Source of the DNA: Elusimicrobia bacterium RIFOXYA2_FULL_39_19
Lineage (GTDB): Bacteria > Elusimicrobiota > Endomicrobiia > CG1-02-37-114 > XYA2-FULL-39-19
NCBI GenBank assembly: GCA_001800285.1
Contig: MGVC01000001.1
Span: forward strand, 1-64,000
Direction of reading: 5' to 3'
DNA: 64,000 bases
Shown here: positions 5,031 through 31,799 of the stretch, one piece after another
How positions within the stretch are numbered: position 1 is the stretch's first letter
Layout: the number at the start of each line of letters is the position of its first letter
Program-made: the position numbers and the translations under genes
The notes under the pieces: model-generated
Seen by the model: only the letters and a program-made list of their open reading frames with translations
Told to the model about the DNA's origin: nothing
The model's database searches: none

Positions 5031-5375
5031 ATGCTTTTTATGAGCGGATGGTTTTTCATGGGAATATCCATTGGATTCTTTATTATCCAATGGCTGGTGT
5101 TGAGATCTGTTCCGAAGTATTTGTTACGGGCATTCGCGTACTTTCCTTTGCTTGGATTCCTTGCCAACCTGGCCGCCAGTGGAAGTATAAGCATTTTCAC
5201 CGGGGTTGCCAGCTTCGTAGGCATTTGCAACATGATCTCAAGCATTGGTGTTTCTTTTTGGTTGATTGGATATGCCCGTTTTCACGGTGTTAAGCTGGTA
5301 TGGAAACGGTACGCGATTTTGTTAAAGTACCCGGATTTTGTGGAGGAGAATCCGGCGGACCATTGGTTGTTCTAA
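5031..5375 (+). CDS. Multi-span membrane protein
   Basis: A 114-residue protein with about three or four membrane helices (roughly residues 5-25, 38-55, 58-75 and 78-90) and a basic then acidic C-terminal tail. AAAAGGGGGTGATGATAC precedes the ATG at 5031. Layout and size resemble a small holin-like or superinfection-exclusion-type membrane protein, but no motif identifies it. It is the largest of the island's membrane proteins. Confidence 0.6.
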   Translation: MLFMSGWFFMGISIGFFIIQWLVLRSVPKYLLRAFAYFPLLGFLANLAASGSISIFTGVASFVGICNMISSIGVSFWLIGYARFHGVKLVWKRYAILLKYPDFVEENPADHWLF

Positions 5376-5624: not shown

Positions 5625-5630
5625 AATAAG

Positions 5631-5670
5631 CAATCTCAGAAAGGGGTTGCTATTTTTTTGCCCTAAGGGC
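5631..5670 (+). terminator. Terminator-like hairpin just before a start codon
   Basis: GCAATCTC and GGGGTTGC (5631-5638 and 5643-5650) form an 8-base stem with a 4-base loop, followed by TATTTTTTT. A second mini-hairpin GCCC-TAA-GGGC (5660-5670) follows and then AAAGGAG. The next ATG is at 5685, leaving no room for a promoter in between, so this is more likely a partial terminator or attenuator. Confidence 0.7.
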
Positions 5671-5684
5671 AAAGGAGAAACAAC

Positions 5685-6098
5685 ATGAACACAATTTCTA
5701 AAGAGGCCTTAAAACAAGCAGTAATTACCAGCCTGGAAGTATTTGAAGAAATTAAGAAGGAAAAAGGTGTCTCATTTTTATCAGAAGACTCTTTGATAAA
5801 AGTGGCCATATCGCTCTATATACAGGAGAGCAGAAATGGCAATGGACACAGTAACGGCAACGCTAACGGGTTTACAAAGGAGAAACCCAAGGCCGATGTT
5901 CCGCTCATAGTGAATTTCGGGAAGTACAAGGGCAAAACTTTGGAAGAGCTAGTCAAAATTGATCGCAGCTATGTCAATTGGCTAGCGGCAAAGTCTGAGA
6001 TTGAAAAGATTCGGCTTGAGGCAAAGAAACTTATTGAAGCAAACCCGGTTTCAACAGGGAATGTAACAATTCCTAAACCGAAGGCATTTCAGAAGTAA
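5685..6098 (+). CDS. Protein with exodeoxyribonuclease X C-terminal-like domain
   Basis: A 137-residue protein. Residues about 78-108 (VNFGKYKGKTLEELVKIDRS then YVNWL) match the short domain found at the C-terminus of exodeoxyribonuclease X and in many small phage proteins (Exodeox_X_C). That module is thought to assist DNA binding; no exonuclease catalytic domain is present here. The N-terminal 50 residues are helical, followed by a Gly/Asn/His-rich linker (about residues 52-62). It starts 15 bases after the mini-hairpin 5660-5670 and begins the DNA-processing block. Confidence 0.65.
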   Translation: MNTISKEALKQAVITSLEVFEEIKKEKGVSFLSEDSLIKVAISLYIQESRNGNGHSNGNANGFTKEKPKADVPLIVNFGKYKGKTLEELVKIDRSYVNWLAAKSEIEKIRLEAKKLIEANPVSTGNVTIPKPKAFQK

Positions 6099-6108
6099 AT
6101 CAGCAAAA

Positions 6109-6164
6109 GCAGGGCAGACATTAAGTCAGAGTCCTGATGGACTTCAAAGCCCTGCTATTTTTTT
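6109..6164 (+). terminator. Terminator-like hairpin just before a start codon
   Basis: GCAGGGC (6109-6115) pairs with GCCCTGC (6149-6155); an inner AGTC/GACT pairing is possible. TATTTTTTT follows, then GGAGG and the ATG at 6183, 18 bases after the T-run. Confidence 0.7.
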
Positions 6165-6182
6165 ATCCTTGGAGGATAATTT

Positions 6183-6950
6183 ATGGACAGAGATAACGGA
6201 AAAGAACTTCTTTCGGTTTCAAAAATCAAGATGTATTTGAGGTGCCCGCTCCAGTATTACTATCGATATTGCGAAGGCATCAAGATACCACCGGATGCAG
6301 GCTTGACTCTAGGAAAAGCGGTGCATTCTGGGATAGAGCAGAACTTCAGGCAGAAGATAACGAGCTTTTCTGACCTGCCTCTCAATGATGTTCTGGATAT
6401 TTACTCAACCGCGTTTGAAAGTTATCTCCAGGAGGAATTTAATTTTGGTGAAGATAAGCCCGGAGATGTGAAGGATTTGGGTGTTGGGCTTGTAAAAGTT
6501 TACCACGCAGAGTTGTCACCGAAAATCCAGCCGGTTAGTGTTGAAGAACATTTTATTTTGGAGTTCGAGGCACCGGTGGAATACGGATTTCAGGGATATA
6601 TGGATGTGATTGATGCTGAGTCAAATATCCGGGACAGCAAGACAGCCAAGCGATCCTATGCTCAGAATGCCGCGGAAAATGACCTTCAGCTCACTGCGTA
6701 TAACCTGGCGTACAAGTTTCTGAAGGGCAAAGAACCAAAGGCTTTAATCTTTGACGTGATGGTTAAGAACAAGACGCCAAAGGTTCAGACTATTTCTTCA
6801 CCGCCAAGAGGTGAAGCTCAACTTAACAGGTTGCTCAAGCTGATAGGGTTTGTTTCCAAGTCAATCAAGACAGGTGTATTTTACCCGTGTGAAAACGGTC
6901 AGGTGTGCAGCTGGTGCGGATATCGCAAGGACCATTGTTCGAGCTGGTAG
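6183..6950 (+). CDS. PD-(D/E)XK nuclease, RecB/Cas4-like, Fe-S type
   Basis: A 255-residue nuclease of the PDDEXK_1 type. Visible elements: SVSKIKMYLRCPLQYYYRY at the N-terminus (Cys21), GKAVHSGIE (His48), Asp141, the catalytic DSK (Asp151-Lys153), the QLTAY motif (Gln169) and a C-terminal cysteine group (Cys236, 242, 245, 252). Cys21 with the C-terminal cysteines is the typical 4Fe-4S cluster arrangement of Cas4/AddB-like nucleases. It probably degrades or trims DNA ends for the element's own recombination or replication. No cas genes or repeats are nearby, so it is not a CRISPR adaptation gene here. Confidence 0.85.
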   Translation: MDRDNGKELLSVSKIKMYLRCPLQYYYRYCEGIKIPPDAGLTLGKAVHSGIEQNFRQKITSFSDLPLNDVLDIYSTAFESYLQEEFNFGEDKPGDVKDLGVGLVKVYHAELSPKIQPVSVEEHFILEFEAPVEYGFQGYMDVIDAESNIRDSKTAKRSYAQNAAENDLQLTAYNLAYKFLKGKEPKALIFDVMVKNKTPKVQTISSPPRGEAQLNRLLKLIGFVSKSIKTGVFYPCENGQVCSWCGYRKDHCSSW

Positions 6951-6977
6951 GGTTAGATTCAAATGAAGCAAATAAAA

Positions 6978-7018
6978 GGGAGTGTCTTGTTGCTATACAG
7001 GTCACTCCCTAATTTTTA
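6978..7018 (+). terminator. Terminator-like hairpin just before a start codon
   Basis: GGGAGTG (6978-6984) pairs with CACTCCC (7003-7009), followed by TAATTTTTA and then AGGAGGTG. The next ATG is at 7033. Confidence 0.7.
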
Positions 7019-7032
7019 TCAGGAGGTGCAAT

Positions 7033-7347
7033 ATGTGTAAAAACATTTTTGATGATATGCCTATCATCAGTGCTTACACGCTCGAGCAAGCGATTTCTGA
7101 CGGAATCCTTGTGAAAGTTGGGCAGTGTGGCCGTTACGCCGTGATATTCACCGCTAACCTGTTTTATGACGGCGGTTACGAAGACAAGGACAAGCGGATG
7201 ATTCTTGTTCAAAAAGGGATTGAGATGCTTAAACAATCGGGCCCGGAGGATTCTGATTGTATGCGGTTACGTGTGGTCGAAAAGGACAAAATCTGGGTAA
7301 TCGCAGATGGCCAGGCAGTAACATTCATGAGACCTGAAGATTACTAA
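7033..7347 (+). CDS. DUF6573-like protein
   Basis: A 104-residue protein starting at the ATG after CAGGAGGTGCAAT. Its N-terminal pattern (PIISAYTLEQAISDGILVKV) matches the opening of DUF6573, a small family common in mobile elements and plasmids, often near ArdC and RadC as here. The function of the family is not known to me. The assignment is from memory of the motif and should be confirmed by a profile search. It opens a short run with two zinc-finger-like proteins. Confidence 0.6.
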   Translation: MCKNIFDDMPIISAYTLEQAISDGILVKVGQCGRYAVIFTANLFYDGGYEDKDKRMILVQKGIEMLKQSGPEDSDCMRLRVVEKDKIWVIADGQAVTFMRPEDY

Positions 7348-7358
7348 CGGAGGATGCC

Positions 7359-7556
7359 ATGAAAGATAACCGTTTCGTAATGGAAACTGCTGGTGGTGCA
7401 AGGATATGTAATCCCTGCGGCCGAAAAATCAGGATGGGAGAGAATTGCTTAGCATTTTCAAAAGGTTCCGGCCGATACAGTGTGTCAGGCAATGTTTGCA
7501 GACAGTGCCTGGTAAAATTCGTTGAAAAAACAAGGAATAAGGAGGTATCAATATGA
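7359..7556 (+). CDS. Small zinc-finger-like protein
   Basis: A 65-residue protein with two CXXC pairs (ICNPCGR near residue 16 and VCRQC near residue 47), suggesting one zinc-binding fold of the ribbon or treble-clef kind. Its start follows ACGGAGGATGCC. The end overlaps the next gene by 4 bases (ATGA). Confidence 0.55.
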   Translation: MKDNRFVMETAGGARICNPCGRKIRMGENCLAFSKGSGRYSVSGNVCRQCLVKFVEKTRNKEVSI

Positions 7557-7738
7557 AACTTAAATGTCCGAAAGGATGTAAGACAAAAATGAGATGTAAG
7601 TTCTATCGCGGCTGGTATGTGAATTTTCTTTACGATAGCAAAGGTAAAGAATTAAAGCTCGATGACACTTCATGGGAGCATTATGACAAAAGCTACCGGT
7701 GCAGATTGTGCCATGAACCTGCCGTAGAGGAGAAGTAA
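7553..7738 (+). CDS. Small cysteine-rich protein
   Basis: A 61-residue protein with CPKGCKTKMRC at the N-terminus and CRLCHE near the C-terminus; probably zinc-binding. It is translationally coupled to the previous gene, with AAGGAGGTATCAAT as ribosome site inside that gene. Function unknown. Confidence 0.55.
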   Translation: MKLKCPKGCKTKMRCKFYRGWYVNFLYDSKGKELKLDDTSWEHYDKSYRCRLCHEPAVEEK

Positions 7739-7761
7739 GGTTAGTGTTAAATTTAAGCAAA

Positions 7762-7806
7762 AGGGGAGCAATTCTGTGCTAATCGGAGTTGCTCCCCTAT
7801 TTTTTT
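7762..7806 (+). terminator. Terminator-like hairpin just before a start codon
   Basis: AGGGGAGCAA (7762-7771) pairs with TTGCTCCCCT (7789-7798), a 10-base stem extended inwards by G-U pairs, followed by ATTTTTTT and CGGAGG. The next ATG is at 7824, 17 bases after the T-run. Confidence 0.75.
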
Positions 7807-7823
7807 ATCGGAGGATAAAACAA

Positions 7824-8294
7824 ATGAACAACAAATTTAAAGACGTAAAGTTTATGACAGCAAAAGAAAAAGAGTTGGTGCTAAAAAACTGGATAAGATT
7901 TATTGAAACATTGGTTTCAAATCCAGGTAAAGACAAGCCGGACCTTTTCAGTAAATTTACCAAAAGGTTGTACGAGCATTTACATCTGCATTGTTCGTTC
8001 ATAGCCCACTATGACCGTTATGGCTTTTACACCACGTATTTTGATGACCCTGTCTATACGATAAAGTTCATCCAGCAGTTTGACAGTGATCTTGGGTGCA
8101 AGAGCGTTGAATACGGTTTTAATTGGTGGCAGGATGGCGACTTTGCAGATCTTAATCAGGCTATGTGTATAGCAATCGATGAACACAAGAAAACGCTATA
8201 CGAGAAATTGCGTAATAGCGAGAAAGAAAATGATGTAAATGCAGCTAAAGGTTTGGCTAATAAATGGGGTTACGTGCTTAAGGAGGTGAGATAA
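7824..8294 (+). CDS. Unknown 156-residue protein
   Basis: The start is set by CGGAGGATAAAACAA. The protein is rich in aromatic residues in its middle (SFIAHYDRYGFYTTYFDDPV) and helical at both ends, with no membrane segments. It resembles small mobile-element proteins of unknown role that sit beside ArdC/RadC; I do not recognise a family. Its last base overlaps the next start (8294), so the genes 7824-9841 form one overlapping unit. Confidence 0.6.
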   Translation: MNNKFKDVKFMTAKEKELVLKNWIRFIETLVSNPGKDKPDLFSKFTKRLYEHLHLHCSFIAHYDRYGFYTTYFDDPVYTIKFIQQFDSDLGCKSVEYGFNWWQDGDFADLNQAMCIAIDEHKKTLYEKLRNSEKENDVNAAKGLANKWGYVLKEVR

Positions 8295-8566
8295 TGAAAG
8301 TACTACAGGTAAAGTCACTGGAACACTTGAAGAAAATCTTGTTCAAGGGGCCGGGCGAGTTTTTTATAGCCCTTAACTATGACTGTAAATCCTCAAAAAC
8401 CGTGTCCTATGACAAGAAGTCCAAGGTTTTCTATGTGACAAATTGGATTGACGGCACAGAGCAGGAGTTATCCAGCAGGCAAATCATGAGTGTTGGCTGG
8501 ACAAACATCGGTAAGGCAATAAAAAAAGGAGCTTTCTATTATGAATGTTCCGGGAGGCAGCAATGA
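8294..8566 (+). CDS. Unknown 90-residue protein
   Basis: A small soluble protein with a strand-rich centre (GEFFIALNYDCKSSKTVSYD onwards). AAGGAGGTGAGATA precedes its ATG. The stop overlaps the RadC-like gene start (ATG at 8563). It has a similar size and setting to phage accessory proteins; unknown function. Confidence 0.55.
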   Translation: MKVLQVKSLEHLKKILFKGPGEFFIALNYDCKSSKTVSYDKKSKVFYVTNWIDGTEQELSSRQIMSVGWTNIGKAIKKGAFYYECSGRQQ

Positions 8567-9030
8567 AAAACAAGTTTAATCAATCGTTTGTTCATCTAGA
8601 GTTAGTACGGGATAAAAAGCCGGGGCCAGTTATCACTAAACCGATTGAGGCTATTGCGGTCATCAAGGCAATGCTTGGCAAAATGGACCGTGAATATTTT
8701 ATGTCAATCCATTTGTCTGCACGGAACAGCGTGACTGGCATAGAGGTTGTTTCTGTGGGCATACTTAATGCCAGCATGGTTCACCCGAGGGAAGTGTTTA
8801 AGGCTGCGATTTTGAATTCCTCGGCGAGCATTATACTGGTTCATAATCATCCAAGTTTTGATTTAACGCCAAGTGATGATGACCTTAAGCTCACAAAACG
8901 GCTGATTGAGTGTGGAAAATTGCTTGGCATTGAAGTTTTGGATCACATAATCACTGGAAATGCCGGCGATGAACATTTTTCGATGCAGTCAAAAGGTTTA
9001 ATTAAACAAGAGGAGGGGTCCTATGAATAA
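8563..9030 (+). CDS. RadC-like JAB/MPN-domain protein
   Basis: A 155-residue protein of the RadC family core (JAMM metal-binding domain). The signature HNHPSFDLTPSDDD gives the H-x-H...S...D metal ligands, and VHPREVFKAAILNSSASIIL is the usual segment just before it. The N-terminal helix-hairpin-helix of full-length chromosomal RadC is absent, as in most plasmid and element copies. Such short RadC proteins are linked with anti-restriction and mobile-element maintenance, though their biochemical role is unsettled. It overlaps the ArdC gene by 8 bases. A longer in-frame start (8545) exists but the GGGAGGCAGC site favours 8563. Confidence 0.85.
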   Translation: MKNKFNQSFVHLELVRDKKPGPVITKPIEAIAVIKAMLGKMDREYFMSIHLSARNSVTGIEVVSVGILNASMVHPREVFKAAILNSSASIILVHNHPSFDLTPSDDDLKLTKRLIECGKLLGIEVLDHIITGNAGDEHFSMQSKGLIKQEEGSYE

Positions 9031-9841
9031 CGTCACAGAAATTGTTACGAACAAGATTTTAGCTGAAATGGAAAAGGGAGTTGTGCCCTGGGAAAGGCCC
9101 TGGATTGTTATTCCTAAGCAAAACATGGTGAGCAAGAAGCCATATGGTGGAATTAACCGCCTATTGTTAGCCTTTGAGAATGAAGATTATTATCTTTCAT
9201 TCAACCAGGTTAAACAGCTTGGCGGAAAAATTAAGAAAGGTGCTAAAGCACAGATTGTGATATTCTGGAAACCGATTGAGAAACACAAAGCTGATGCAGA
9301 GAATAAAAAGCCTGAAGAAAAGCCGGAGTATTTTGTTCTCCTGAGGTATTACCGCGTGTTTAAACTCGCTGATACCGAAGGTATTTCCAGGCCGGAAAAG
9401 TTAAACAACAATCCCCGGCGGGAAGATATTGAGGCGTTTATCCAAAGAATCAATCCTAAAATTGAATTCGGCGGGTCGACTGCTTCATATAATCCTGAAA
9501 GCGACACAATCAATATGCCGGTAATTGAGCGGTTTAACGATTCGGATCATTATTATGCGACTTTTATGCACGAATTGCTGCATTGGACAGGTTCCAAAGG
9601 GAGGTTGGACCGGTTCAATGGTGATGGTATAAGCAATTACCATCAATCCTACGGCAAAGAGGAACTTGTCGCAGAGATAGGGAGTGCAATCCTGTGCCAC
9701 TATTTCGGGATATCCTTGCCCGCCCACAATGCTGCATACCTGGATAACTGGGTTAAGGCAATCAAGGGCGACAATAGGATGCTGCTGGGTGCTTCCGCCC
9801 GGGCAGAAAAAGCACTTGAGTTCCTGAAATTGGAAGTGTAA
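9023..9841 (+). CDS. ArdC-family antirestriction protein
   Basis: A 272-residue protein of the ArdC type: an N-terminal ssDNA-binding domain (residues about 1-115) with the VPWERPW motif, then a zincin metallopeptidase domain with HELLHWTG (His183, Glu184, His187) and a downstream Glu in GKEELVAEIG as third ligand. ArdC proteins protect incoming single-stranded DNA of plasmids and integrative elements from host nucleases or restriction. It is a strong marker that this region can transfer as DNA. GAGGAGGGGTCCT precedes the ATG inside the RadC-like gene. Confidence 0.9.
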   Translation: MNNVTEIVTNKILAEMEKGVVPWERPWIVIPKQNMVSKKPYGGINRLLLAFENEDYYLSFNQVKQLGGKIKKGAKAQIVIFWKPIEKHKADAENKKPEEKPEYFVLLRYYRVFKLADTEGISRPEKLNNNPRREDIEAFIQRINPKIEFGGSTASYNPESDTINMPVIERFNDSDHYYATFMHELLHWTGSKGRLDRFNGDGISNYHQSYGKEELVAEIGSAILCHYFGISLPAHNAAYLDNWVKAIKGDNRMLLGASARAEKALEFLKLEV

Positions 9842-9862
9842 AGGATAATGTTCAATGCAAAA

Positions 9863-9908
9863 GCGGGAGGTAATCTGTAAAAGGGTTGCCTCTCGCTATT
9901 TTTATTTT
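9863..9908 (+). terminator. Terminator-like hairpin just before a start codon
   Basis: GCGGGAGGTAAT (from 9863) pairs with GTTGCCTCTCGC (ending 9896) in a long stem with several G-U pairs, followed by TATTTTTATTTT and AGGAGG. The next ATG is at 9923. Confidence 0.65.
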
Positions 9909-9922
9909 AGGAGGTTAGTTTT

Positions 9923-11200
9923 ATGCAGATAACACTTGAAACAGTAAGAGAAACATTAAGGAAGGCACTCGGCTGGGAGTCCTATGTGGCAAGATTTATC
10001 AGTAAAACTATTGAAGCCAGGGATACTCCCACGGTTTGTATTACAAAAGAAGGGGTCCTTAGATTCAACCCTGATTTTCTTGAAGAGCATGTTAAAACCC
10101 AGGAAGATTTGTTTAGTGTGGTATTTCACGAACTGTTACACCCGATGTTCAACCATTTTATTTACCGTTGCGGTGACCTTGAAAACATTGCTACCGACAG
10201 CATAATCAATGCTGTGATAAGTAAACTGTATTGTGAGCAATCTGACGGTGGTAAGTTCTTCGCTAAACTCTACACTGCTACCGGCTTAACCGGGTTACTA
10301 AGGCCAAACAGCAACCTGCGGGAGACGCGGTTTGAGGGCTTGTATGGCAACCTATATTATTGCGGGCCAAAAATTACTACTGGCGATGTAATTCAGACGC
10401 TAAGGATACTTGCTGATACTGTACCTGCGGGTATAACGCTTATTGGCTCGCATTCCGGTGAAGGTAACATTCCTGCTGATATTGCGGAGAAAATTGCTAG
10501 CGAGCTAAAGGACAATATCTCAAAGCAGTACAGAAAGAACGCTGGAAGCAACAATAATCTTGCTGATTTGTTCATAGAGATTCTTAAAAGCAAGTTTACA
10601 CTAAGAAAGCAGATTCTTGAGCGGTATGTTTCAAATACAGTTAAAAGCAAATTTAAGTCGTTTGTGGGTAACGACGCAGAACGGGTTTCACCTGTGCTTA
10701 CATCAGGTTGCAGGCTCAGGCGTGCAGCGGTGTTACTATCTTGTGGTGTATATCCTGTAAGGTATTACATCCCCAAAAGCAGCCTTAAGCCAAAAAGCGG
10801 GATTGTAGTATATCTTGATGTCAGCGGTAGTTTTCAGGATTGCCTGCCGGATATTGTTGGCGTGCTTATGACAATCAAAGATAAACTCGGGAAAGTATAC
10901 GCGTTTTCTAATGTTGTTAAAGAAATCCCGTTTACTGACCTGGTGAAAGGCAAGACTTCAAGCACTGGCGGGACTGATTTTGATTGCATAGCATTATCAA
11001 TCCTTGAAAACAGGTATGAACATTCAATAGTAATTACCGATGGCTATGCTAATTTAAAGGATGACCTTGCAGAAAAGTTGAGGGTATTTAATCCAAGGAT
11101 ACTCACAATAATGTTTGACGGTAAAATGAGCTGCTCTGAGTTTCAACCCTTCGGGGATGTAGTGCAGCTTGACGATATCAAGGAGGTGGTCGGACAATAA
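9923..11200 (+). CDS. DUF2201-like metallopeptidase + VWA domain protein
   Basis: A 425-residue protein with two parts. The N-terminal part carries a zincin motif FHELLHPMFNHF (His69, Glu70, His73). The C-terminal part is a von Willebrand A-like domain starting near residue 290 with the metal-binding DVSGS motif and later SSTGGTDF and IVITDGYA. This is the architecture of DUF2201 proteins, which usually occur with a MoxR AAA+ ATPase, as here (next gene). MoxR-VWA pairs act as ATP-driven chaperone or activator complexes; the target on this element is unknown. The gene has its own hairpin-plus-ribosome-site leader. Confidence 0.8.
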   Translation: MQITLETVRETLRKALGWESYVARFISKTIEARDTPTVCITKEGVLRFNPDFLEEHVKTQEDLFSVVFHELLHPMFNHFIYRCGDLENIATDSIINAVISKLYCEQSDGGKFFAKLYTATGLTGLLRPNSNLRETRFEGLYGNLYYCGPKITTGDVIQTLRILADTVPAGITLIGSHSGEGNIPADIAEKIASELKDNISKQYRKNAGSNNNLADLFIEILKSKFTLRKQILERYVSNTVKSKFKSFVGNDAERVSPVLTSGCRLRRAAVLLSCGVYPVRYYIPKSSLKPKSGIVVYLDVSGSFQDCLPDIVGVLMTIKDKLGKVYAFSNVVKEIPFTDLVKGKTSSTGGTDFDCIALSILENRYEHSIVITDGYANLKDDLAEKLRVFNPRILTIMFDGKMSCSEFQPFGDVVQLDDIKEVVGQ

Positions 11201-11232
11201 GATTCAATTTCAGTTAAGTTTTAAGTTACAAA

Positions 11233-11274
11233 AGAGAGGAAATAAACCTCTCTATTTTTATGCCCAAAAAGGGC
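11233..11274 (+). terminator. Terminator-like hairpin just before a start codon
   Basis: AGAGAGG (11233-11239) pairs with CCTCTCT (11247-11253), followed by ATTTTTA. A mini-hairpin GCCC-AAAAA-GGGC (11262-11274) then leads into CAAGGAG and the ATG at 11288. The arrangement copies that at 5631-5670. Confidence 0.65.
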
Positions 11275-17314: not shown

Positions 17315-17330
17315 CCCGTAATTTTACGGG
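17315..17330 (+). promoter_or_regulatory. Mini-hairpin before the CsgG-like operon
   Basis: CCCGTAA and TTACGGG form a perfect 7-base stem with a 2-base centre. GGAGGAGG follows at once, before the ATG at 17344. It may protect the transcript's 5' side or act as an operator. Confidence 0.5.
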
Positions 17331-22136: not shown

Positions 22137-22191
22137 TTTATAAATACCGTATTTATTAATAAAAGTATCTCACTATTTTAGGGAGTGTAGG

Positions 22192-22220
22192 TTGTTTTTT
22201 TGCAAACTCATTAGCATATA
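22192..22220 (+). promoter_or_regulatory. TTGTTT-type promoter of the replication genes
   Basis: TTGTTT (22192-22197), 17-base spacer, CATATA (22215-22220). It shares AGGTTGTTTTTT and CATATATA with the promoter at 25067. It lies directly before the ribosome site of the 22242 gene. Confidence 0.55.
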
Positions 22221-22241
22221 TAGGTGAGGAGGAAGACGAAA

Positions 22242-22460: not shown

Positions 22461-25062
22461 TCACGAACGGTTTATAGTAAAACCCAAGAAGGAATACAGG
22501 AGAGTCGTTTCTGCGAGAATAGCAACTCAAGAAACTGATATGTCCCTTGAAGAATTAACTCGTGAAATCATCATCCCAAATGGGCGGACTTGGACCCCAG
22601 CGATATTTGATCCTCAATATAGAGAAAATGACAATTGGAAGGCTCAGCAGCTGTTTGTTTTGGATATAGACCATGAGATAACCTCAGATATAGCTTTAGA
22701 ACGCTGTAGAAGAACAGGCTTAAAGCCGGCTTTGGTTTATACTACATTCAGCAGCATAACAAATGAACGTTTTAGAATGGTTTTTGCCTTGGATTATGAG
22801 ATAACTGACGAAAGGGTTCGGGATGTAATACAGACTGCTCTTATGACCATTTTAAAGGAATGCGATCCAGGGTGTAAGGACCCTGCCAGGATGTTCTTTG
22901 GGGGCAAAGCGGTGTTACATACAGACTATTCCGCTAGGATTGGTATCCCGGAACTTATAGAAAGCATGTGTTTGTACCTATGTGACCAAGATAAGTCCCA
23001 TGCAGCCAGGGAAATAGAGAGGTTTTGCAATATAGTGGGTTTAGATATGGTAGATGGTTTACCTTATATTGAGGTTTTAAATGGGCAATCTCCTGATTAT
23101 AGTAGTGGTGATAGTGCTATTTTGGCGAAAAAACCGCAAATCCATTATATATATATTAATAAAGGACTTGCTGTAAAATCGCCAAAAACCATAATGTTAC
23201 ATTTCGCGGGAAATATAACCACACCTACTAAATCAGGAAATAGCCGAAAAAGTGATATATCACCTATAAGAAACCTTGGTTTTAAGAAATTGTCCAAAAA
23301 ATGCCAACTATATAGGAAATTTATAAATGGCCGCTATTGGGCCTATTATCCTGAGTTATTTGGGATGATTACAAATCTCTGGAATGTCCAGGGAGCAAGA
23401 AAGAAGTTTATGAAAGCAATAGAAAGATATAAGATGCCTTTCCGGAGCTATGCCAAATATGATTGGGAATCAAGATTCACTTATTGCAGGAAAAGCGGGT
23501 ATAAGCCTACGGGGTGTGACAAGTTTTGCCCATTTACCCAAGACTGTAAGCACCGCAGAAATATGATTGACCATGTTAGGTTGTGCCGGGGAATGGTGAA
23601 TGTGATAGAAGAGCCCAAACTTATAAGTTGCAGACAGGCTGAACAGGAACTCGCAGATCTTGTAATAGAGGCAATTGCGAAAAAGGACAATGGTATCTAT
23701 GTCATAAAAGCTCCCGCCGGCCTGGGTAAAACTGAAGAGTTTGTTAAACAAACGAAGCATTTCACTTTAGCGGCACCAACCCACAAACTTAAAGATGAAA
23801 TTCATACGCGTATGAAAAACGAAGGGAAAGAGGTCATTACTTCTCCGAAACTGCCGGAATTGGGACCGGAATATCAGGAGGAAATGGCTTATATCGATAG
23901 GCTTTACGACATAGGAGCACCTAAAGAGGCAGCTGAATACATGAAATCAATTGCTCAGAAGAAAGGTATCCCGGAACTGGCGACATATCTGGATGACTTG
24001 GATAAATTCAGTAAAGCTGAAGGAACAGTGATAACCACTCACGAGCGATTAATGAGTCTGGAAACAAAAAACGACACCGTTATTATTGACGAAGACATCC
24101 TGCCTACACTTTTAAAACAAGGGAGTATGAAAATTAGCGATTTTCGAGAGTTTGAGACCGTAATAAAACCCGAGGAAAGAACTAGATATTACGCACTGCT
24201 TAATGCTGTTGTTGATTTAGAACCAGAAACTTGTATGGGTAGAAATGTGGGCATAAGAGGACCAGATGCCGCGGATGAAATACTTACTGAAACTCAAATC
24301 AATACAGACGTTCTGGGGTTTCTTAAATGCGATTTCTTTATTAAATCCAGAGGGAATAGAAATATTATTCATTACATAAGACGGAGATTCTTACCTGAAA
24401 ACAAAAACATAATAATTCTTTCTGCAACCGCTAACAAGTTTATTTATGAACAATTGTTTGGAAACAGAGTTCATTTTTCTGAGGTTGAACGGTGTGAAAC
24501 TGTTGGCAGGATAATTCAATACCCGCAGAAATCATTTTCTAGGGACTGCATAAATAAGAACCTTGAACTCATGGAGTTTGCGAAGAGTTTTGCCGGTAAT
24601 AAGCCAGTGATAACGTATAAAGCTACAAGGCAAGCTTTCGGTAATCCTATTGCACATTTCGGTGCATTGAATGGTCTGGACAGTTTTTCAGGAAACAACA
24701 TTGTCATAGTTGGAACACCTCATGTTAATCCTACGGTGTATTCGCTTTATGCAGCAGCCCTTGGGCTAGATACCAGGTTGGGGAGAACTAGCGAAAGGCC
24801 TGAGTATATCCCGATTGAAAGGAATGGCATGGAATTCTATTTCAATACGTTCTCAAAAGGTTCGGCATTACGTGAGATACAGCTATTCCTTATAGAATCC
24901 GAACTTGAGCAGGCCATAGGGCGGGCCAGGGTACTAAGACAGCCATGTGAAGTAACTGTATTATCAAATTGCCCCATAGTAGGGGCTGAATTTAGGTATT
25001 TTTCAAAGGAAAACCGCGAAAAAATGAGTTTAAAGGCTGTTTTTCAAAAAAGTGATAAATGA
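22444..25062 (+). CDS. Primase-helicase-like replication protein
   Basis: An 872-residue protein. The N-terminal part resembles an archaeo-eukaryotic-type primase: LFVLDID (Asp74, Asp76) supplies the metal-binding D-x-D, followed by ERFRMVFAL and DPARMFFGG, which is typical of primase-polymerase cores. A cysteine cluster (Cys348, 358, 362, 368) looks like a zinc or Fe-S site. The C-terminal part is a helicase-type ATPase with Walker A APAGLGKT (423-430), DED (549-551) and late motifs ending in EQAIGRARVLRQ. It probably primes and unwinds DNA for replication of the excised element. Its own promoter-linked leader includes the preceding small gene. Confidence 0.8.
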   Translation: MKICLDHERFIVKPKKEYRRVVSARIATQETDMSLEELTREIIIPNGRTWTPAIFDPQYRENDNWKAQQLFVLDIDHEITSDIALERCRRTGLKPALVYTTFSSITNERFRMVFALDYEITDERVRDVIQTALMTILKECDPGCKDPARMFFGGKAVLHTDYSARIGIPELIESMCLYLCDQDKSHAAREIERFCNIVGLDMVDGLPYIEVLNGQSPDYSSGDSAILAKKPQIHYIYINKGLAVKSPKTIMLHFAGNITTPTKSGNSRKSDISPIRNLGFKKLSKKCQLYRKFINGRYWAYYPELFGMITNLWNVQGARKKFMKAIERYKMPFRSYAKYDWESRFTYCRKSGYKPTGCDKFCPFTQDCKHRRNMIDHVRLCRGMVNVIEEPKLISCRQAEQELADLVIEAIAKKDNGIYVIKAPAGLGKTEEFVKQTKHFTLAAPTHKLKDEIHTRMKNEGKEVITSPKLPELGPEYQEEMAYIDRLYDIGAPKEAAEYMKSIAQKKGIPELATYLDDLDKFSKAEGTVITTHERLMSLETKNDTVIIDEDILPTLLKQGSMKISDFREFETVIKPEERTRYYALLNAVVDLEPETCMGRNVGIRGPDAADEILTETQINTDVLGFLKCDFFIKSRGNRNIIHYIRRRFLPENKNIIILSATANKFIYEQLFGNRVHFSEVERCETVGRIIQYPQKSFSRDCINKNLELMEFAKSFAGNKPVITYKATRQAFGNPIAHFGALNGLDSFSGNNIVIVGTPHVNPTVYSLYAAALGLDTRLGRTSERPEYIPIERNGMEFYFNTFSKGSALREIQLFLIESELEQAIGRARVLRQPCEVTVLSNCPIVGAEFRYFSKENREKMSLKAVFQKSDK

Positions 25063-25066
25063 CAGG

Positions 25067-25095
25067 TTGTTTTTTAGGTTACTTGTTGACATATA
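25067..25095 (+). promoter_or_regulatory. TTGTTT-type promoter
   Basis: TTGTTT (25067-25072), 17 bases, CATATA (25090-25095), close in sequence to the promoter at 22192. A 150-base leader follows to the gene at 25252, with two AGGAGG-like sites and no convincing open frame in between. Confidence 0.5.
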
Positions 25096-25251
25096 TAAGT
25101 AGAGGGGCAAAGTAGAGCAGGAAAATCAGAAGAAGGAGGTAGCATTAAATCCCGGCAAAGACTTTGGATCACCGGTTTGAAATAGCGGGATTGCTGAATT
25201 GAAACAGGTGAATATTAAACCAATAGCCTCAACTGAGGCCAGGAGGATAAG

Positions 25252-25980
25252 ATGAAAAGATATTTAGATGAAGAACGCAACAAAGATGAGCAGTACTGGT
25301 TTGTCGAAAGTAAGAGCAAAGGGCTTCTTTTACGTACAGGTTTCGAGAGGGATATGGTGATGACCAGCATATCAGAAGATCTGAATCCCATATTTTTCAT
25401 GAGCGAAAAAGATGCTCTGAAGGCGGTCAAGGCAGGAGACATGTTCAAGGATGTTCCCAAAGACATGTTTGTTTCGATGTATAAGGTAGGAGAACTATGC
25501 AAAGAACTAAACAAAAGGGTTGCCAAATATCGCAATATGCTTGTTAAGAAGCATATTGAAATTGATGGTGTGCAGGTCCCTTATACGGTTGCTGAATTCT
25601 CCGATAAGATCGGGATTTATCCAGATGGTGATCCTGAAGTAGGTATGGTAACGGTGACTGGTGGAGTTGATAAATTACCTTATAAAGTCAAGCAAGGATT
25701 GATAGCTCATGCTCTGGGGCAGGTTTGTATTTATCAAGACAATGAGGGTAAGCCATTGACATTCACCCAAGAGGAAAAACGTAAAGCTGATGAATATGGG
25801 GTCAATTTTGTCGGAGCCCATACTATGAGACTTGCTTTAAGGTATATGTTGGCAAAAACTCATAAACATCAAAGTAAGCCTTCAACAAAAGACATAAGAA
25901 ATAGAATATCCGGGTTGCTGAAACTCGAAAATATTGAGAAAACAGGAGGTGGGCAAGAAAAAGTAGCTGTTATGGCGTGA
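25252..25980 (+). CDS. Unknown protein with degenerate zincin-like motif
   Basis: A 242-residue soluble protein. GLIAHALGQV (His153, Gln157) and, 23 residues on, KADEYGVNFVGA look like the HExxH...EADxxA pattern of M48/M78-type metallopeptidases, with the catalytic Glu replaced by Ala and the second His by Gln. If the fold is right, the enzyme is inactive and the protein would act as a binding partner. The N-terminal half is unrecognised. The start follows CAGGAGGATAAG. Confidence 0.6.
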   Translation: MKRYLDEERNKDEQYWFVESKSKGLLLRTGFERDMVMTSISEDLNPIFFMSEKDALKAVKAGDMFKDVPKDMFVSMYKVGELCKELNKRVAKYRNMLVKKHIEIDGVQVPYTVAEFSDKIGIYPDGDPEVGMVTVTGGVDKLPYKVKQGLIAHALGQVCIYQDNEGKPLTFTQEEKRKADEYGVNFVGAHTMRLALRYMLAKTHKHQSKPSTKDIRNRISGLLKLENIEKTGGGQEKVAVMA

Positions 25981-26060
25981 GGTTAAAAAGAAACCGGAAA
26001 CAAGCTGTAAACATGGAAATTTCCATAAGGTAGCATAGTGTGAAGTGCAGTAAAGTAACG

Positions 26061-26125
26061 GGTGAGGATTCTGGGGTTTGTTACCGCCCCAGAACTCACC
26101 AAAAAATAAAAATGCCCCAAGGGGC
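26061..26125 (+). ncRNA. Structured leader RNA, copy 1
   Basis: GGTGAG-GA-TTCTGGGG pairs with CCCCAGAA-CTCACC (26061-26100), a 14-base stem with a GA bulge and a loop containing TTGTTACC. AAAAAATAAAAAT and the perfect mini-hairpin GCCCC-AA-GGGGC (26114-26125) follow, ending in the GGAGG of the gene at 26140. A near copy lies at 27024. It is likely a cis-acting leader. It is not a terminator, since no T-run follows the stem. Confidence 0.7.
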
Positions 26126-26139
26126 GGAGGAAAACTAAG

Positions 26140-26664
26140 ATGATTAACTATCAAAACGTTGAAGATGCAAAAGTAGTGAATTATGAAGATTACGATATTA
26201 CATTCAATGAGAATTCTGAAACATGGGCAGTGCGTTTAGGACCGGAACTGCTTTATGCAAACGCTTCGTTTAAATCTGTCAAAAATTATATAGATAGATT
26301 TGAAAAAAACAAGAGAAAATTCGAAAGAATAAAGATCCTGGTTTTAAATGAATGGGGTTCTTGGGTAAAAGATACTGAAAAGTATACTCAGGGATGGTTG
26401 GAAGGAGAAATAACTTCCATCACGGAAGAGGGGGATGTTTGGAAATGTTATAAGGATGTTGATGGCAAGACGGAAAGACGCAAGTATGACCATGAATGGT
26501 TGAATAAGCACGGTTTTTACGAACTAAACGACAAAAATAAAGAGATAGCTAATGAAATAATGCGGCTCAAAAAAGAAGCAGATTCACTTAATAAAAAAGC
26601 AGAGGAATTAGAAAAACAATTAGCAACAATTCGTTTGAAAAAAAATAAAAAGGAGGTGAAATAA
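26140..26664 (+). CDS. Unknown protein with C-terminal coiled coil
   Basis: A 174-residue protein under the first structured leader. The N-terminal 130 residues are a mixed alpha/beta domain without known motif; residues about 133-168 (IANEIMRLKKEADSLNKKAE onwards) form a coiled coil. A ribosome site for the next gene (AAAAGGAGGTGAAATAA) lies at its end, 3 bases before the next ATG. Confidence 0.6.
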   Translation: MINYQNVEDAKVVNYEDYDITFNENSETWAVRLGPELLYANASFKSVKNYIDRFEKNKRKFERIKILVLNEWGSWVKDTEKYTQGWLEGEITSITEEGDVWKCYKDVDGKTERRKYDHEWLNKHGFYELNDKNKEIANEIMRLKKEADSLNKKAEELEKQLATIRLKKNKKEVK

Positions 26665-26667
26665 ATC

Positions 26668-26961
26668 ATGGTAGAAACAAAAAATAAATTTTCAAGGAAA
26701 AAGCTTTCGGCAGCAGCTCATCAGTATAGACTTCAGCAAGCCAGAGTCTTATTAAATAGCTTTGCAGCCGAGTTGACTGATGGTAAGAGCACATGGACTG
26801 GTCCAGCTTTCTGTGAAATCAAGAATGATTCTTTTTTACCGATTAAGGAAATTCTGACAAATCCAAAATACAAGGGTATAAAAGCAAAAGTTCTAAAAGA
26901 AGAATTCATTCATGAGTCTGTGACAGATTTAGAAAAAGTAAAGTTTGTTAGATTATTTTAA
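26668..26961 (+). CDS. Small basic unknown protein
   Basis: A 97-residue protein with a basic N-terminus (KNKFSRKKLSAAAHQYRLQQ) that could contact nucleic acid. AAGGAGGTGAAATAA precedes the ATG. It ends just before the second structured leader. No family recognised. Confidence 0.55.
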   Translation: MVETKNKFSRKKLSAAAHQYRLQQARVLLNSFAAELTDGKSTWTGPAFCEIKNDSFLPIKEILTNPKYKGIKAKVLKEEFIHESVTDLEKVKFVRLF

Positions 26962-27023
26962 GGTAGCGTAAAGTACGGTAATGCGATGTAAGGCACAGTA
27001 AAGTGTAGCGAAGCAAAGCGAAG

Positions 27024-27087
27024 GGTGAGGATTCTGGGGTTGCTACCACCCCAGAACTCACCAAAAAATAAAAATGCCCCAAGGGGC
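27024..27087 (+). ncRNA. Structured leader RNA, copy 2
   Basis: The same architecture as 26061-26125: a GGTGAG-GA-TTCTGGGG stem with CCCCAGAA-CTCACC, a loop with TTGCTACC, the same AAAAAATAAAAAT linker and the same GCCCC-AA-GGGGC mini-hairpin before GGAGG. The region just upstream (26961-27023) holds imperfect GTAAAGT-type repeats, also related to those before copy 1. The conserved stem and variable loop argue for an RNA-level role. Confidence 0.7.
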
Positions 27088-27100
27088 GGAGGGTAAGAAA

Positions 27101-28084
27101 ATGATTAAAAACAGAGAATACAAGAAGAAGAAAGTAAGAATCCTAGATTTCAACGGGACAAAGTTAGAAATAAAGGATACATGGGATTATAACAGGGGAT
27201 TTACCTTAACAGTTAAAACCAAGGTAAAACCAGGGGTTAAAATTGAAGATCTAAAAGCAGGTGATTTAATATTCATTTCGGATAAGGGCCGTTATTCCTA
27301 TCTATATGCATGTTCCTTTATTGAATACAGTAAGGGTATTGTTCATGCAAAAGTGATGGCCACAGAACGAAATTGGACTCCATTAAAAGTTGGAGAAATA
27401 ATACGTACCAGGAAAAAGTACTGTCGTATTCATACGACAAGTGGTGTTCAAATGTTTAAGTCAGACGAATCATCAATAAAACAAAGAGAAAACCCAAATA
27501 TTCTTAGCAAAACCCAGAAAGAAGTCTTGGGATTGATGTCCGAAGGATGGGAATTGCGACGTTATAGTGACAGATTTTCTGAGTTGCCATGGCTTCGTAA
27601 AAAAGATACGACTAATATGGAGCAGCCTAAAAGTCTAAGTAGAGCAACGCTTTTTGCTTTGTTAAACAAGAGTCTAATAAGTCAAGTCAGAGATACTAAT
27701 TATCCGGTTAGATACAAGCTTGGAGAAGAAGACCGATTAATTAAAACAAAGACACTAAGTAATGGATTGTCGCGAGAAGATGGCTACAGGATACTTGTAT
27801 CAAGATATAAACCCAAAGGTTTTGATAAACCCTTTGAACCCTGGAGCATATGGGTTCCTTCGCTTGCCCCGAATAGGAAGTTGCATAATCAATGGCAGAA
27901 TAAAGAAATTTCTTTGGAGGAATTTAAGAGTAGGTATCTCGAAGAAATGAAGAAGCAAGAAGAAAAAATAAGATACTATGCAGAACATAGTAGAGTACAG
28001 AGAGTAACCTTAGTCTGTTCTTGTAAAGATAAGGACAGATGTCACACGTCTCTGTTGAAAACATTGATGGAGAAGGTGAAATAA
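27101..28084 (+). CDS. DUF488-domain protein with N-terminal extension
   Basis: A 327-residue protein. The C-terminal about 115 residues match DUF488: EDGYRILVSRYKPKG, then WVPSLAPNRKLHNQW and VTLVCSCKDKDRCHTSLL with its conserved Cys/His/Arg block. The N-terminal 200 residues are unrecognised, with a strand-rich first half (VRILDFNGTKLEIKD onwards). The start at 27101 is chosen over 27074, which lies inside the mini-hairpin. The next gene is a stand-alone DUF488 paralogue, 1 base downstream. Confidence 0.75.
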   Translation: MIKNREYKKKKVRILDFNGTKLEIKDTWDYNRGFTLTVKTKVKPGVKIEDLKAGDLIFISDKGRYSYLYACSFIEYSKGIVHAKVMATERNWTPLKVGEIIRTRKKYCRIHTTSGVQMFKSDESSIKQRENPNILSKTQKEVLGLMSEGWELRRYSDRFSELPWLRKKDTTNMEQPKSLSRATLFALLNKSLISQVRDTNYPVRYKLGEEDRLIKTKTLSNGLSREDGYRILVSRYKPKGFDKPFEPWSIWVPSLAPNRKLHNQWQNKEISLEEFKSRYLEEMKKQEEKIRYYAEHSRVQRVTLVCSCKDKDRCHTSLLKTLMEKVK

Positions 28085-28085
28085 G

Positions 28086-28490
28086 ATGATTAGAATTAAA
28101 GCGTTAAGCGATCCGGTAAGTAAGGAAGATGGCCTGCGGGTGCTTGTCACCCGCTACAGGCCCAGGTATATAAGGAAGCAAGATGAGACATGGCAGGAAT
28201 GGGACATTTCTGTTGCTCCCAGCCGGGAGTTGCACGCAGACTTCTATGGTAAAAATGGCAGGAAGGTCTCCTGGCAGGAGTATAAAGGTCGATACCTCAC
28301 AGAGATGCGGGCACAAAAGGATCGTATCAGGTACTGGGCAGAAAGAAGCAAGAAGGAGAATATAACCCTTCTGTGTTTTTGCAAAGATGAAAACAGATGT
28401 CATAGGACACTGTTAAAAAAATTAATTATGGAGGATAAAAGTCATGAAAAATCACATGTACGGCAACACAAAGACGTGGAATCCGTTTAA
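28086..28490 (+). CDS. DUF488-family protein
   Basis: A 134-residue protein homologous to the C-terminus of the preceding gene: EDGLRVLVTRYRPRY, WDISVAPSRELHADFYG, ITLLCFCKDENRCHRTLL. DUF488 proteins are small, of uncertain function, and often occur near radical-SAM-like or DNA-processing genes in mobile elements. The start follows GAGAAGGTGAAATAAG. Its end overlaps the next gene by 47 bases. Confidence 0.8.
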   Translation: MIRIKALSDPVSKEDGLRVLVTRYRPRYIRKQDETWQEWDISVAPSRELHADFYGKNGRKVSWQEYKGRYLTEMRAQKDRIRYWAERSKKENITLLCFCKDENRCHRTLLKKLIMEDKSHEKSHVRQHKDVESV

Positions 28491-30457: not shown

Positions 30458-31576
30458 ATGAGCCAAAATAATTGGAAAAAACGTAAATATCGTGGCATGT
30501 CGGAGAAGAATGGTATATGGCATTTGGATTACTATGTCTCTGGAAAAAGAGTCAGGGAAAAGATAGGAACTGACAGAAAGTTAGCGGAAATAGTTCTTAA
30601 AAAACGGAAGGTTGAGGTTGCAGAATGTAAGTTTCTTAATAAAAAGAAGAAATATAGGTTCTTTAAATTATGTGACACCTATCTGAAAAATTATTCCCTG
30701 CCCAACAAAAGGTCCTATGACTCTGATGTAGGATTTGTGAAATGTTTTAAAGAGCATTTTAAAGACATATATTTGGATCAATTTACGCCTTTGCTTATTG
30801 AAAAATATAAATCCGAAAGGTGTTGTAGTGTTAAACCGTCAAGTGTCAACAGAGCACTGGTTGTATTGAAATCTATGTTTAGCCGGGCTGTTGAGTGGGG
30901 AATAACAGAAGCAAATCCAGTAAAAAAGGTTAAATTGTTTTCAGTAGATAACGGAAGGTTAAGATTTTTATCAACTGAAGAAATCAAGAGATTGCTGGAC
31001 AACTGTTCAGGATACTTGTATGATATAGTAGTGCTTGCGTTAACCACCGGTATGCGAAGAGGCGAAATATTGAATATGAAGTGGGAAGACGTTGATCTTA
31101 AGAATGGTACCATCTTCATACCTTTTGGTAACTCAAAAAATAAGCACAGTCGCGAGATTCCAATGAATAGTATTTTAATGCATACCTTCAATAATATAAA
31201 GCGGAATCCTAAGAGTCTATATGTTTTTTGTCACAGTGATGGCAGAATGATACTTGATATTAAAAAGTCATTTGGTACAGCATTAAGGAAAGCAGAAATT
31301 CAAGAAGCAACTTTTCATACCATGAGGCATACATTTTGCTCTCAATTGGCCTTGGCAGGCGTTGATATTTTCACAATAAAAGAGCTGGTAGGGCACCGGA
31401 AGATTGAAATGACTATGAGATATGCCCATTTAACCCCAAATCACAAGAAAGCAGCCCTTGAGATATTGAATAACAAGATAGTACCATTGCTAGCAACGGA
31501 CACTTTAACGGACACTCCTGATTTGGGGACGATAATAAGAGAACAGAAAGCATTGTATTTATCGACGGTAAATTGA
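30458..31576 (+). CDS. int: Tyrosine recombinase (integrase)
   Basis: A 372-residue tyrosine integrase. The N-terminal part (residues 1-60) is an AP2-like/arm-binding domain, then a SAM-like core-binding domain (about 70-150). The catalytic residues are visible: Arg200 in TTGMRRGE, HTMRH (His287, Arg290), His313 in LVGHRK and Tyr322 in MRYAHL. It ends 34 bases before the tRNA-Val 3' fragment it presumably recognises and catalyses insertion at that tRNA gene. Full length, no frameshift. Confidence 0.95.
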   Translation: MSQNNWKKRKYRGMSEKNGIWHLDYYVSGKRVREKIGTDRKLAEIVLKKRKVEVAECKFLNKKKKYRFFKLCDTYLKNYSLPNKRSYDSDVGFVKCFKEHFKDIYLDQFTPLLIEKYKSERCCSVKPSSVNRALVVLKSMFSRAVEWGITEANPVKKVKLFSVDNGRLRFLSTEEIKRLLDNCSGYLYDIVVLALTTGMRRGEILNMKWEDVDLKNGTIFIPFGNSKNKHSREIPMNSILMHTFNNIKRNPKSLYVFCHSDGRMILDIKKSFGTALRKAEIQEATFHTMRHTFCSQLALAGVDIFTIKELVGHRKIEMTMRYAHLTPNHKKAALEILNNKIVPLLATDTLTDTPDLGTIIREQKALYLSTVN

Positions 31577-31610: not shown

Positions 31611-31658
31611 TCCCTTACAAGGAAGAGGTCGCAGGTTCGAATCCTGCATTGCCCACCA
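31611..31658 (+). other. attR-type site: 3' part of tRNA-Val(TAC)
   Basis: Bases 31611-31658 carry the anticodon loop (CTTACAA, anticodon TAC), variable region, T-arm GCAGG...CCTGC, acceptor strand ATTGCCC, and ACCA. The two bases upstream that should complete the anticodon stem do not pair, so homology starts inside the stem, as expected for an integrase crossover. It is not a complete tRNA. The reconstituted full gene should lie at the other end of the element. Confidence 0.85.
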
Positions 31659-31702
31659 TTTGATAATATTTGCCGAAAGTTTGACATAGAAACAGCAGTA
31701 AA

Positions 31703-31784
31703 TATCGGGGTGGTTACACAAACCGTGTGATCTGAGAGATACCCGCAGAACCTGATCTGGCTAATACCAGCGTAGGGAGGTGAT
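31703..31784 (+). promoter_or_regulatory. TPP riboswitch
   Basis: The conserved THI-box segments are present in order: GGGGTG, CTGAGAGATACCC, GAACCTGATCTGG, CTAATACCAGCGTAGGGAGG. It senses thiamine pyrophosphate and controls thiM-thiE. GCGTAGG (31770-31776) can pair with CCTACGC (31801-31807) of the following terminator, providing an anti-terminator alternative. Confidence 0.95.
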
Positions 31785-31799
31785 AAAGTATTTTTTTAA

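Follow-up and report, generated by a model that had tools for sequence, protein, structure and literature searches.

Two near-identical stretches of DNA, lying before two neighboring but unrelated genes of an integrated element, raise the question of whether they encode a shared leader RNA, what such a leader might do and whether it belongs to a wider family. The window, that is, the whole stretch of 64,000 nucleotides that was analysed, had initially been interpreted in a sequence-only reading as holding two leaders 960 bases apart that share a 14-base bulged stem, a TTGYTACC loop, an A-rich linker and an identical GCCCC-AA-GGGGC hairpin next to the Shine–Dalgarno sequence (SD), and that may represent a new cis-regulatory RNA family. 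The stem, loop and linker are indeed present in both copies, and the start-to-start spacing is 963 nucleotides.

Copy 1 (26060–26130) and copy 2 (27023–27092), both on the + strand, are 96% identical over 71 nt and have the same 5' to 3' layout: a bulged 14-bp hairpin, an A-rich linker, a GCCCC-AA-GGGGC mini-hairpin and the SD, GGAGG. The stem comprises 6 + 8 bp with a GA bulge on the 5' side (GGTGAG-(GA)-TTCTGGGG pairing with CCCCAGAA-CTCACC). The apical loops of the two copies are TTTGTTACC and TTGCTACC, the whole loop stretch being TTTGTTACCG or TTGCTACCA depending on the copy; there follow, in both, the linker AAAAAATAAAAAT 3' of the first hairpin, and GCCCCAAGGGGC immediately 5' of GGAGG. 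In leader 1, pattern matching and folding place the first hairpin at 26061–26100 (−23.3 kcal/mol), the linker at 26101–26113, the mini-hairpin at 26114–26125 and the SD at 26126–26130; the corresponding elements of leader 2 lie at 27024–27062 (−22.5 kcal/mol), 27063–27075, 27076–27087 and 27088–27092. Patterns for either half of the leader match at these two sites alone in the window (0.00 matches in shuffled sequences).

Predicted folding energies of the 75-nt cores are −32.9 and −32.1 kcal/mol, whereas the means for shuffled sequences are near −21 (z = −3.9 and −3.3). In both leaders the second hairpin is predicted to have 4–5 bp closing a CAAG tetraloop; because a loop of two nucleotides is impossible, the mini-hairpin proposed at the outset stands in its sequence and its place beside the SD, but not in its AA loop. 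The linker is predicted to be unpaired with a probability near 1 across nearly all positions in both leaders. The SD is predicted to be largely open in leader 2; in leader 1 it is only in part open, with two or three of its bases about half paired. Prediction thus places a single-stranded patch 5' of an accessible SD, as in structured standby sites, with the SD of leader 1 partly paired.

The leaders occupy gaps of ~160 and ~140 bases (25981–26139 and 26962–27100) between same-strand genes. No sigma-70-like promoter is listed on the + strand in either gap, and the leaders therefore look intercistronic. Leader 1 precedes a gene for a 174-residue protein with no significant family (26140–26664, + strand), and leader 2 a gene for a 327-residue protein with a C-terminal DUF488 domain (27101–28084, + strand; PF22751, E = 6.3e-28). 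The two proteins share no homology (best E = 1.7), in agreement with the initial description of the genes as unrelated. Two adjacent DUF488 domains, 44% identical, occupy 27101–28490, in the fused gene and the gene that follows it. The element has a phage-type integrase gene (30458–31576), just behind which 31632–31658 resembles a tRNA gene at its 3' end, and no complete tRNA is called at this place by ARAGORN. This sequence is likely to be the attachment site; a partner copy is absent from the window. A 37-nt direct repeat (76%) lies before two further genes of the element (22189–22225 and 25064–25100), possibly as a common promoter or operator, and an ordinary TPP riboswitch (31696–31796) precedes an apparent thiazole kinase gene.

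The two copies differ by one deleted U, a U to C and a G to A, all within the 10 columns of the apical loop, and no difference is seen at the other 61 positions, which cover the stem, the linker, the mini-hairpin and the SD. Had changes fallen evenly, all three would be found in the loop with a probability of (10/71)^3 = 0.003. The G to A replacement, which turns a closing U-G into U-A and so leaves a possible pair with U, is the sole pair-keeping change between the copies. The confinement of the differences to the loop suggests constraint on all these other parts, although recent copying alone could equally leave the stems identical. As there are only two copies, which differ in the loop only, the 71-nt leader offers no covariation.

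Further copies of the leader sequence were sought widely. In its own 3.09-Mb genome only the two known places match well, blastn of the 71-nt leader gave no real match in 149 genomes and none in phages and plasmids, and a pattern search of viral contigs yielded no genuine copy. Rfam returned no match at the gathering threshold for the whole window, nor at E values up to 1 for 24900–27200. A covariance-model search, the check that the sequence-only reading had proposed, gave matches at E up to 0.1 in 31 of 247 genomes (own genome included), of which 10 alignments were viewed and selected loci read; no real homolog was found among the matches inspected, which we attribute to chance. Seven of the 10 alignments (L027, L028, L030, L032, L033, L034 and L035) have a run of 12 A and CAAG in common. 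At L028, most of which was read, the match corresponds on the opposite strand to promoters (TTGACT, T12, TGATAAAT) of genes that we take, from their N-terminal letters, to be pilin-like; judging from this locus and from their mutual likeness, all seven look like promoters of this kind. Such TTGACT-T12-TGATAAAT promoters are repeated before pilin-like genes at L028 and similar loci of the f13 genomes. The match at L029 appears by eye to lie within coding sequence, and that at L031 (genome G235) is unrelated in sequence, though alike in layout: a gene of a phage-tail-like operon (L031:1300–1640, − strand) does have a hairpin, an A-rich linker and an SD before it, an arrangement that apparently arose independently. 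Exact-pattern matches (two in the genome contig collection and two in relatives) were also chance on inspection, as were 13 16-mer matches in viral contigs, at whose loci there was no covariance match.

Related leaders were also sought by way of the proteins. The 174-residue protein has no relative in viral contigs, phages or plasmids and, in 294 genomes, only one match apart from its own, a weak one (E = 0.005); for the DUF488 gene there are domain matches only, in 9 of 198 genomes including its own, and none in viral contigs. A gene for 242 residues has two weak matches in 247 genomes and none in phages, and one for 872 residues matches only itself. With no further copies and no covariation, the proposal of a new RNA family fails within the sequence searched. 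A cis-acting leader RNA, the other half of that proposal, is plausible: only the loop differs between the copies, and leaders of like design are found elsewhere in the element and in a related one.

This recurrence, which the sequence-only reading had missed, emerged from a comparison of gene starts, called automatically by a simple ORF caller and counted by script, between the element and a chromosomal control from the same genome (31.6–64 kb of the window plus 20 further stretches). A hairpin with a U-run lies within 25 nt of the SD in 6 of 35 element genes (5685, 6183, 7033, 7824, 9923 and 11288) versus 4 of 157 chromosomal genes (p = 0.003), and a mini-hairpin touches the SD in another set of six of the 35 (5685, 11288, 17344, 25252, 26140 and 27101) versus 3 of 157, these window-element tests being post hoc in that the pattern had been noticed at gene starts beforehand. 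None of the 157 chromosomal starts has an SD mini-hairpin with at least four GC pairs. A looser count (any hairpin at or below −8 kcal/mol that carries an A/T tail) gives 15/35 for the window element, 13/22 for a related element in the genome G037 and 32/157 for the chromosome, and the 60-nt upstream regions have mean folding values of −12.1 (n = 35), −10.9 (n = 22) and −6.7 (n = 157), respectively.

Individually, all on the + strand, these leaders vary on the theme. Before gene 5685 a hairpin, ATTTTTTT and the mini-hairpin GCCCTAAGGGC precede the SD (5629–5670), a layout kept in the G037 ortholog; before gene 11288 the order is hairpin, ATTTTTAT and GCCCAAAAAGGGC (11233–11274), and the G037 ortholog has the hairpin and U-run without the mini-hairpin. 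Gene 6183 is preceded by a terminator-like hairpin with a U-run and then by a hairpin that holds the SD (6108–6177); this SD lies inside the short hairpin ATCCTTGGAGGAT (6165–6177), and may therefore be sequestered. Terminator-like hairpins with a U-run or U-rich run also stand before the SDs of genes 7033 (6977–7018; scan and folding), 7824 (7762–7806) and 9923 (9862–9905; scan and folding), and the scan places SD-adjacent hairpins before genes 17344 (17315–17330) and 25252 (25226–25239, the mini-hairpin GCCTCAACTGAGGC). A GC-rich hairpin followed by a U-run, the hallmark of an intrinsic terminator, is found at 5629, 6108, 6977, 7762, 9862 and 11233. From 5629 to 11274, U-run hairpins abut the SD of the next gene serially in one long row of genes, a series conserved in the G037 element.

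G037 belongs to the same class but another family, and its element has orthologs of 5031, 5685, 6183, 7033, 7824, 9923, 11288 and 12755 (29–83% identity). U-run hairpins precede the SD at 7 of its 22 starts (p = 4e-5 against the chromosomal control of the window genome; p = 3e-4 once a weak case, 21504, is removed). At the eight orthologous starts, compared by eye, both elements have the hairpin at 5685, 6183, 7824, 9923 and 11288, the window alone has it at 7033, and neither has it at 5031 and 12755. At 6183 the stems of the two elements have changed on both sides and stay paired (A-T to G-C; G-C to C-G). In G037 the counterpart of the 7824 hairpin of the window stands before another gene, 9923, and shows three differences: a loop change and two one-sided changes that leave pairing intact. 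Since stems at 6183 have changed on both sides and the 7824 hairpin stands before a different gene, comparison of the two elements indicates that U-run hairpins are conserved as structures and that leader modules appear to move between genes. The 37-nt hairpin at 7762–7798 has a near-identical counterpart before the non-orthologous gene at reverse-complement position 22933 of G037 (L098, − strand). The mini-hairpin is not significantly enriched in the G037 element (1 of 22 starts, p = 0.41), being present at the 5685 ortholog and absent at that of 11288. Six distant relatives of the gene-11288 region (L130–L135) do not show the leader series, which is thus limited, within the sequence searched, to the window element and G037.

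For the two copies at 26 kb, the reading that we favor, at a probability of roughly 0.4, is that of an intercistronic 5' leader through which the integrative element influences, in cis, how the following gene is translated. In this view the 14-bp hairpin with its bulge would insulate the leader from the cistron before it, the A-rich linker would remain unpaired so that the 30S subunit can land there (a standby site), and the mini-hairpin would keep the SD presented beside it; duplication of one copy onto an unrelated neighbor could then bring both genes to matching expression levels. Ribosome standby, transcription through the leader and the effect on expression are what we infer from an anatomy, a duplication, a loop-only divergence, a predicted open linker and a recurrence of hairpins before SDs that are themselves observed. 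Structured standby sites can change translation more than 100-fold, as reported in PMC3936740. Counting against the favored reading are the lack of mini-hairpin enrichment in the G037 element, the half-paired bases in the SD of leader 1, the absence of homologs and so of covariation, and the pentamer arrays described below, for which it does not account.

The strongest competitor, still unlikely, is termination and antitermination across the whole operon, in which genes of the element would be silent unless a modified polymerase reads through terminators abutting their SDs, the 26-kb copies being variants of these or antiterminators like the put RNAs of phage HK022. The U-rich leaders of the element do look like operon-internal terminators, with their excess close to SDs in both elements (6/35 and 7/22, against 4/157), and antitermination would be needed; as the start codon follows the U-run hairpin too closely to leave room for a promoter, they would have to be read through for the next gene to be expressed. 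pLS20 and Tn916 provide known cases of multiple operon-internal terminators coupled to antitermination (PMC8955417, PMC11658703), and put RNAs are likewise ~70 nt long, two per genome and built of two stem-loops (PMC9378689). The 26-kb copies, however, carry the A-rich linker AAAAAATAAAAAT after the hairpin in place of a U-run and were rejected as intrinsic terminators or attenuators on the + strand. The strong hairpins of terminator type are found upstream of these copies, at 5.6–11.3 kb, and a consensus scan finds only weak + strand candidates at 27.1–31.6 kb; the position of the copies relative to the SD is also unlike that of put, and no antiterminator gene was identified. Because they are not terminators and have only weak terminator-like sites behind them, the A-linker copies most likely serve translation.

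Somewhat less likely is a role in mRNA processing or stability, in which cleavage in the linker would separate the cistrons, leaving an upstream 3' end shielded by the first hairpin and a new 5' end shielded by the mini-hairpin. An AU-rich single strand flanked by two hairpins in an intercistronic gap would suit such a role, and the host genome has a match to RNase Y. It has no match to RNase E/G, for which the same search was positive in 6 of 14 control genomes, and RNase E processing is unlikely on that account; the first stem is, we presume, short for RNase III.

On a par with processing, and similarly doubtful, is a regulatory target, with the hairpin or a pentamer array binding a regulator encoded by the element that controls both genes together. 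Directly before both leaders, and in phase with the hairpin, stand arrays of GYRNN pentamers (consensus GTAAA), which the sequence-only reading had likewise missed: six units at 26030–26059 (+ strand), five of them beginning with G and keeping the phase of GGGTG at 26060, and 12 units at 26963–27022 (+ strand), all GYRNN, with an autocorrelation of 0.6 at lags 5 and 10. Runs of at least five such units are otherwise absent from the 64-kb window and from the further sequence scanned (364 kb from this genome, 60 kb from G037 and 158 kb from other loci), and Markov sequences gave a run of five once in 60 made. Against a regulatory target, the array differs two-fold in length between the leaders, there is no Rfam match even at E = 1 and no candidate regulator was identified. 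The loops of both copies are also complementary to an upstream GGTAGC, but about 8% of chance trials give this complementarity, and the resulting pseudoknot was for that reason not counted.

A leader that provides a standby site leaves these arrays unexplained. The TRAP-binding trp leader has an array of about 11 short repeats with a period near 5 upstream of a hairpin, its target being 11 or so (G/U)AG triplets with 2–3-nt spacers, that is, KAGNN units. The present arrays resemble it as short repeats of period near 5 lying 5' of a hairpin; with GYRNN units and a GTAAA consensus rather than KAGNN, they were rejected as a TRAP target. It is conceivable, at long odds, that they are binding tracks for a ring-shaped RNA-binding protein encoded by the element, TRAP-like in principle but different in recognition, which would toggle access to hairpin and standby site and so co-regulate both genes in an element that uses leader structures for many of its genes. 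Equally improbable is a DNA-level feature without RNA function, a repeat or recombination site that has shifted from one gene border to another: a 71-nt direct repeat does flank two genes, and a near-identical leader hairpin precedes different genes in the window and G037 elements, but the copies always end at the SD in the same orientation with changes in the loop only, and the leader design recurs with different sequences.

Taken as intercistronic translational leaders, the two copies resemble the structured standby sites of PMC3936740 in having hairpins and single-stranded patches 5' of the SD; tisB is likewise reported to use a single-stranded region and a 5' structure (PMC7708055). They differ from these sites, including tisB, in being intercistronic, in occurring on two genes and in having a mini-hairpin that touches the SD, and they are known here from sequence. 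The U-run leaders at 5.6–11.3 kb, as opposed to the two A-linker copies, share with the conAn operon of pLS20 and the canT operon of Tn916, as sketched in PMC8955417 and PMC11658703, a mobile-element operon with several hairpins like intrinsic terminators between genes; unlike those, the terminator-like hairpins of the window element abut the next SD, and no antiterminator was found. Likeness to HK022 put extends to the ~70-nt size, the two similar copies per genome and the two stem-loops, whereas put, as described in PMC9378689, lies near early promoters and acts on downstream terminators; the window copies abut SDs with no strong terminators behind. Since the gaps lack a listed promoter and the consensus scan shows no strong site of terminator type on the + strand at 27.1–31.6 kb, they were rejected by position as put-like antiterminators.

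At its most modest, the finding is an ordinary structured intercistronic leader. If the proposed reading is correct, a compact duplicated leader would be at hand in two natural copies that can be compared directly, and a mobile element of a little-studied lineage would tune its genes singly by portable leader structures, in which U-run hairpins should stop polymerase and A-linker hairpins should guide ribosomes. Operon-internal termination and antitermination, described for conjugative elements of Gram-positive bacteria in PMC8955417 and PMC11658703, would then extend to another lineage.
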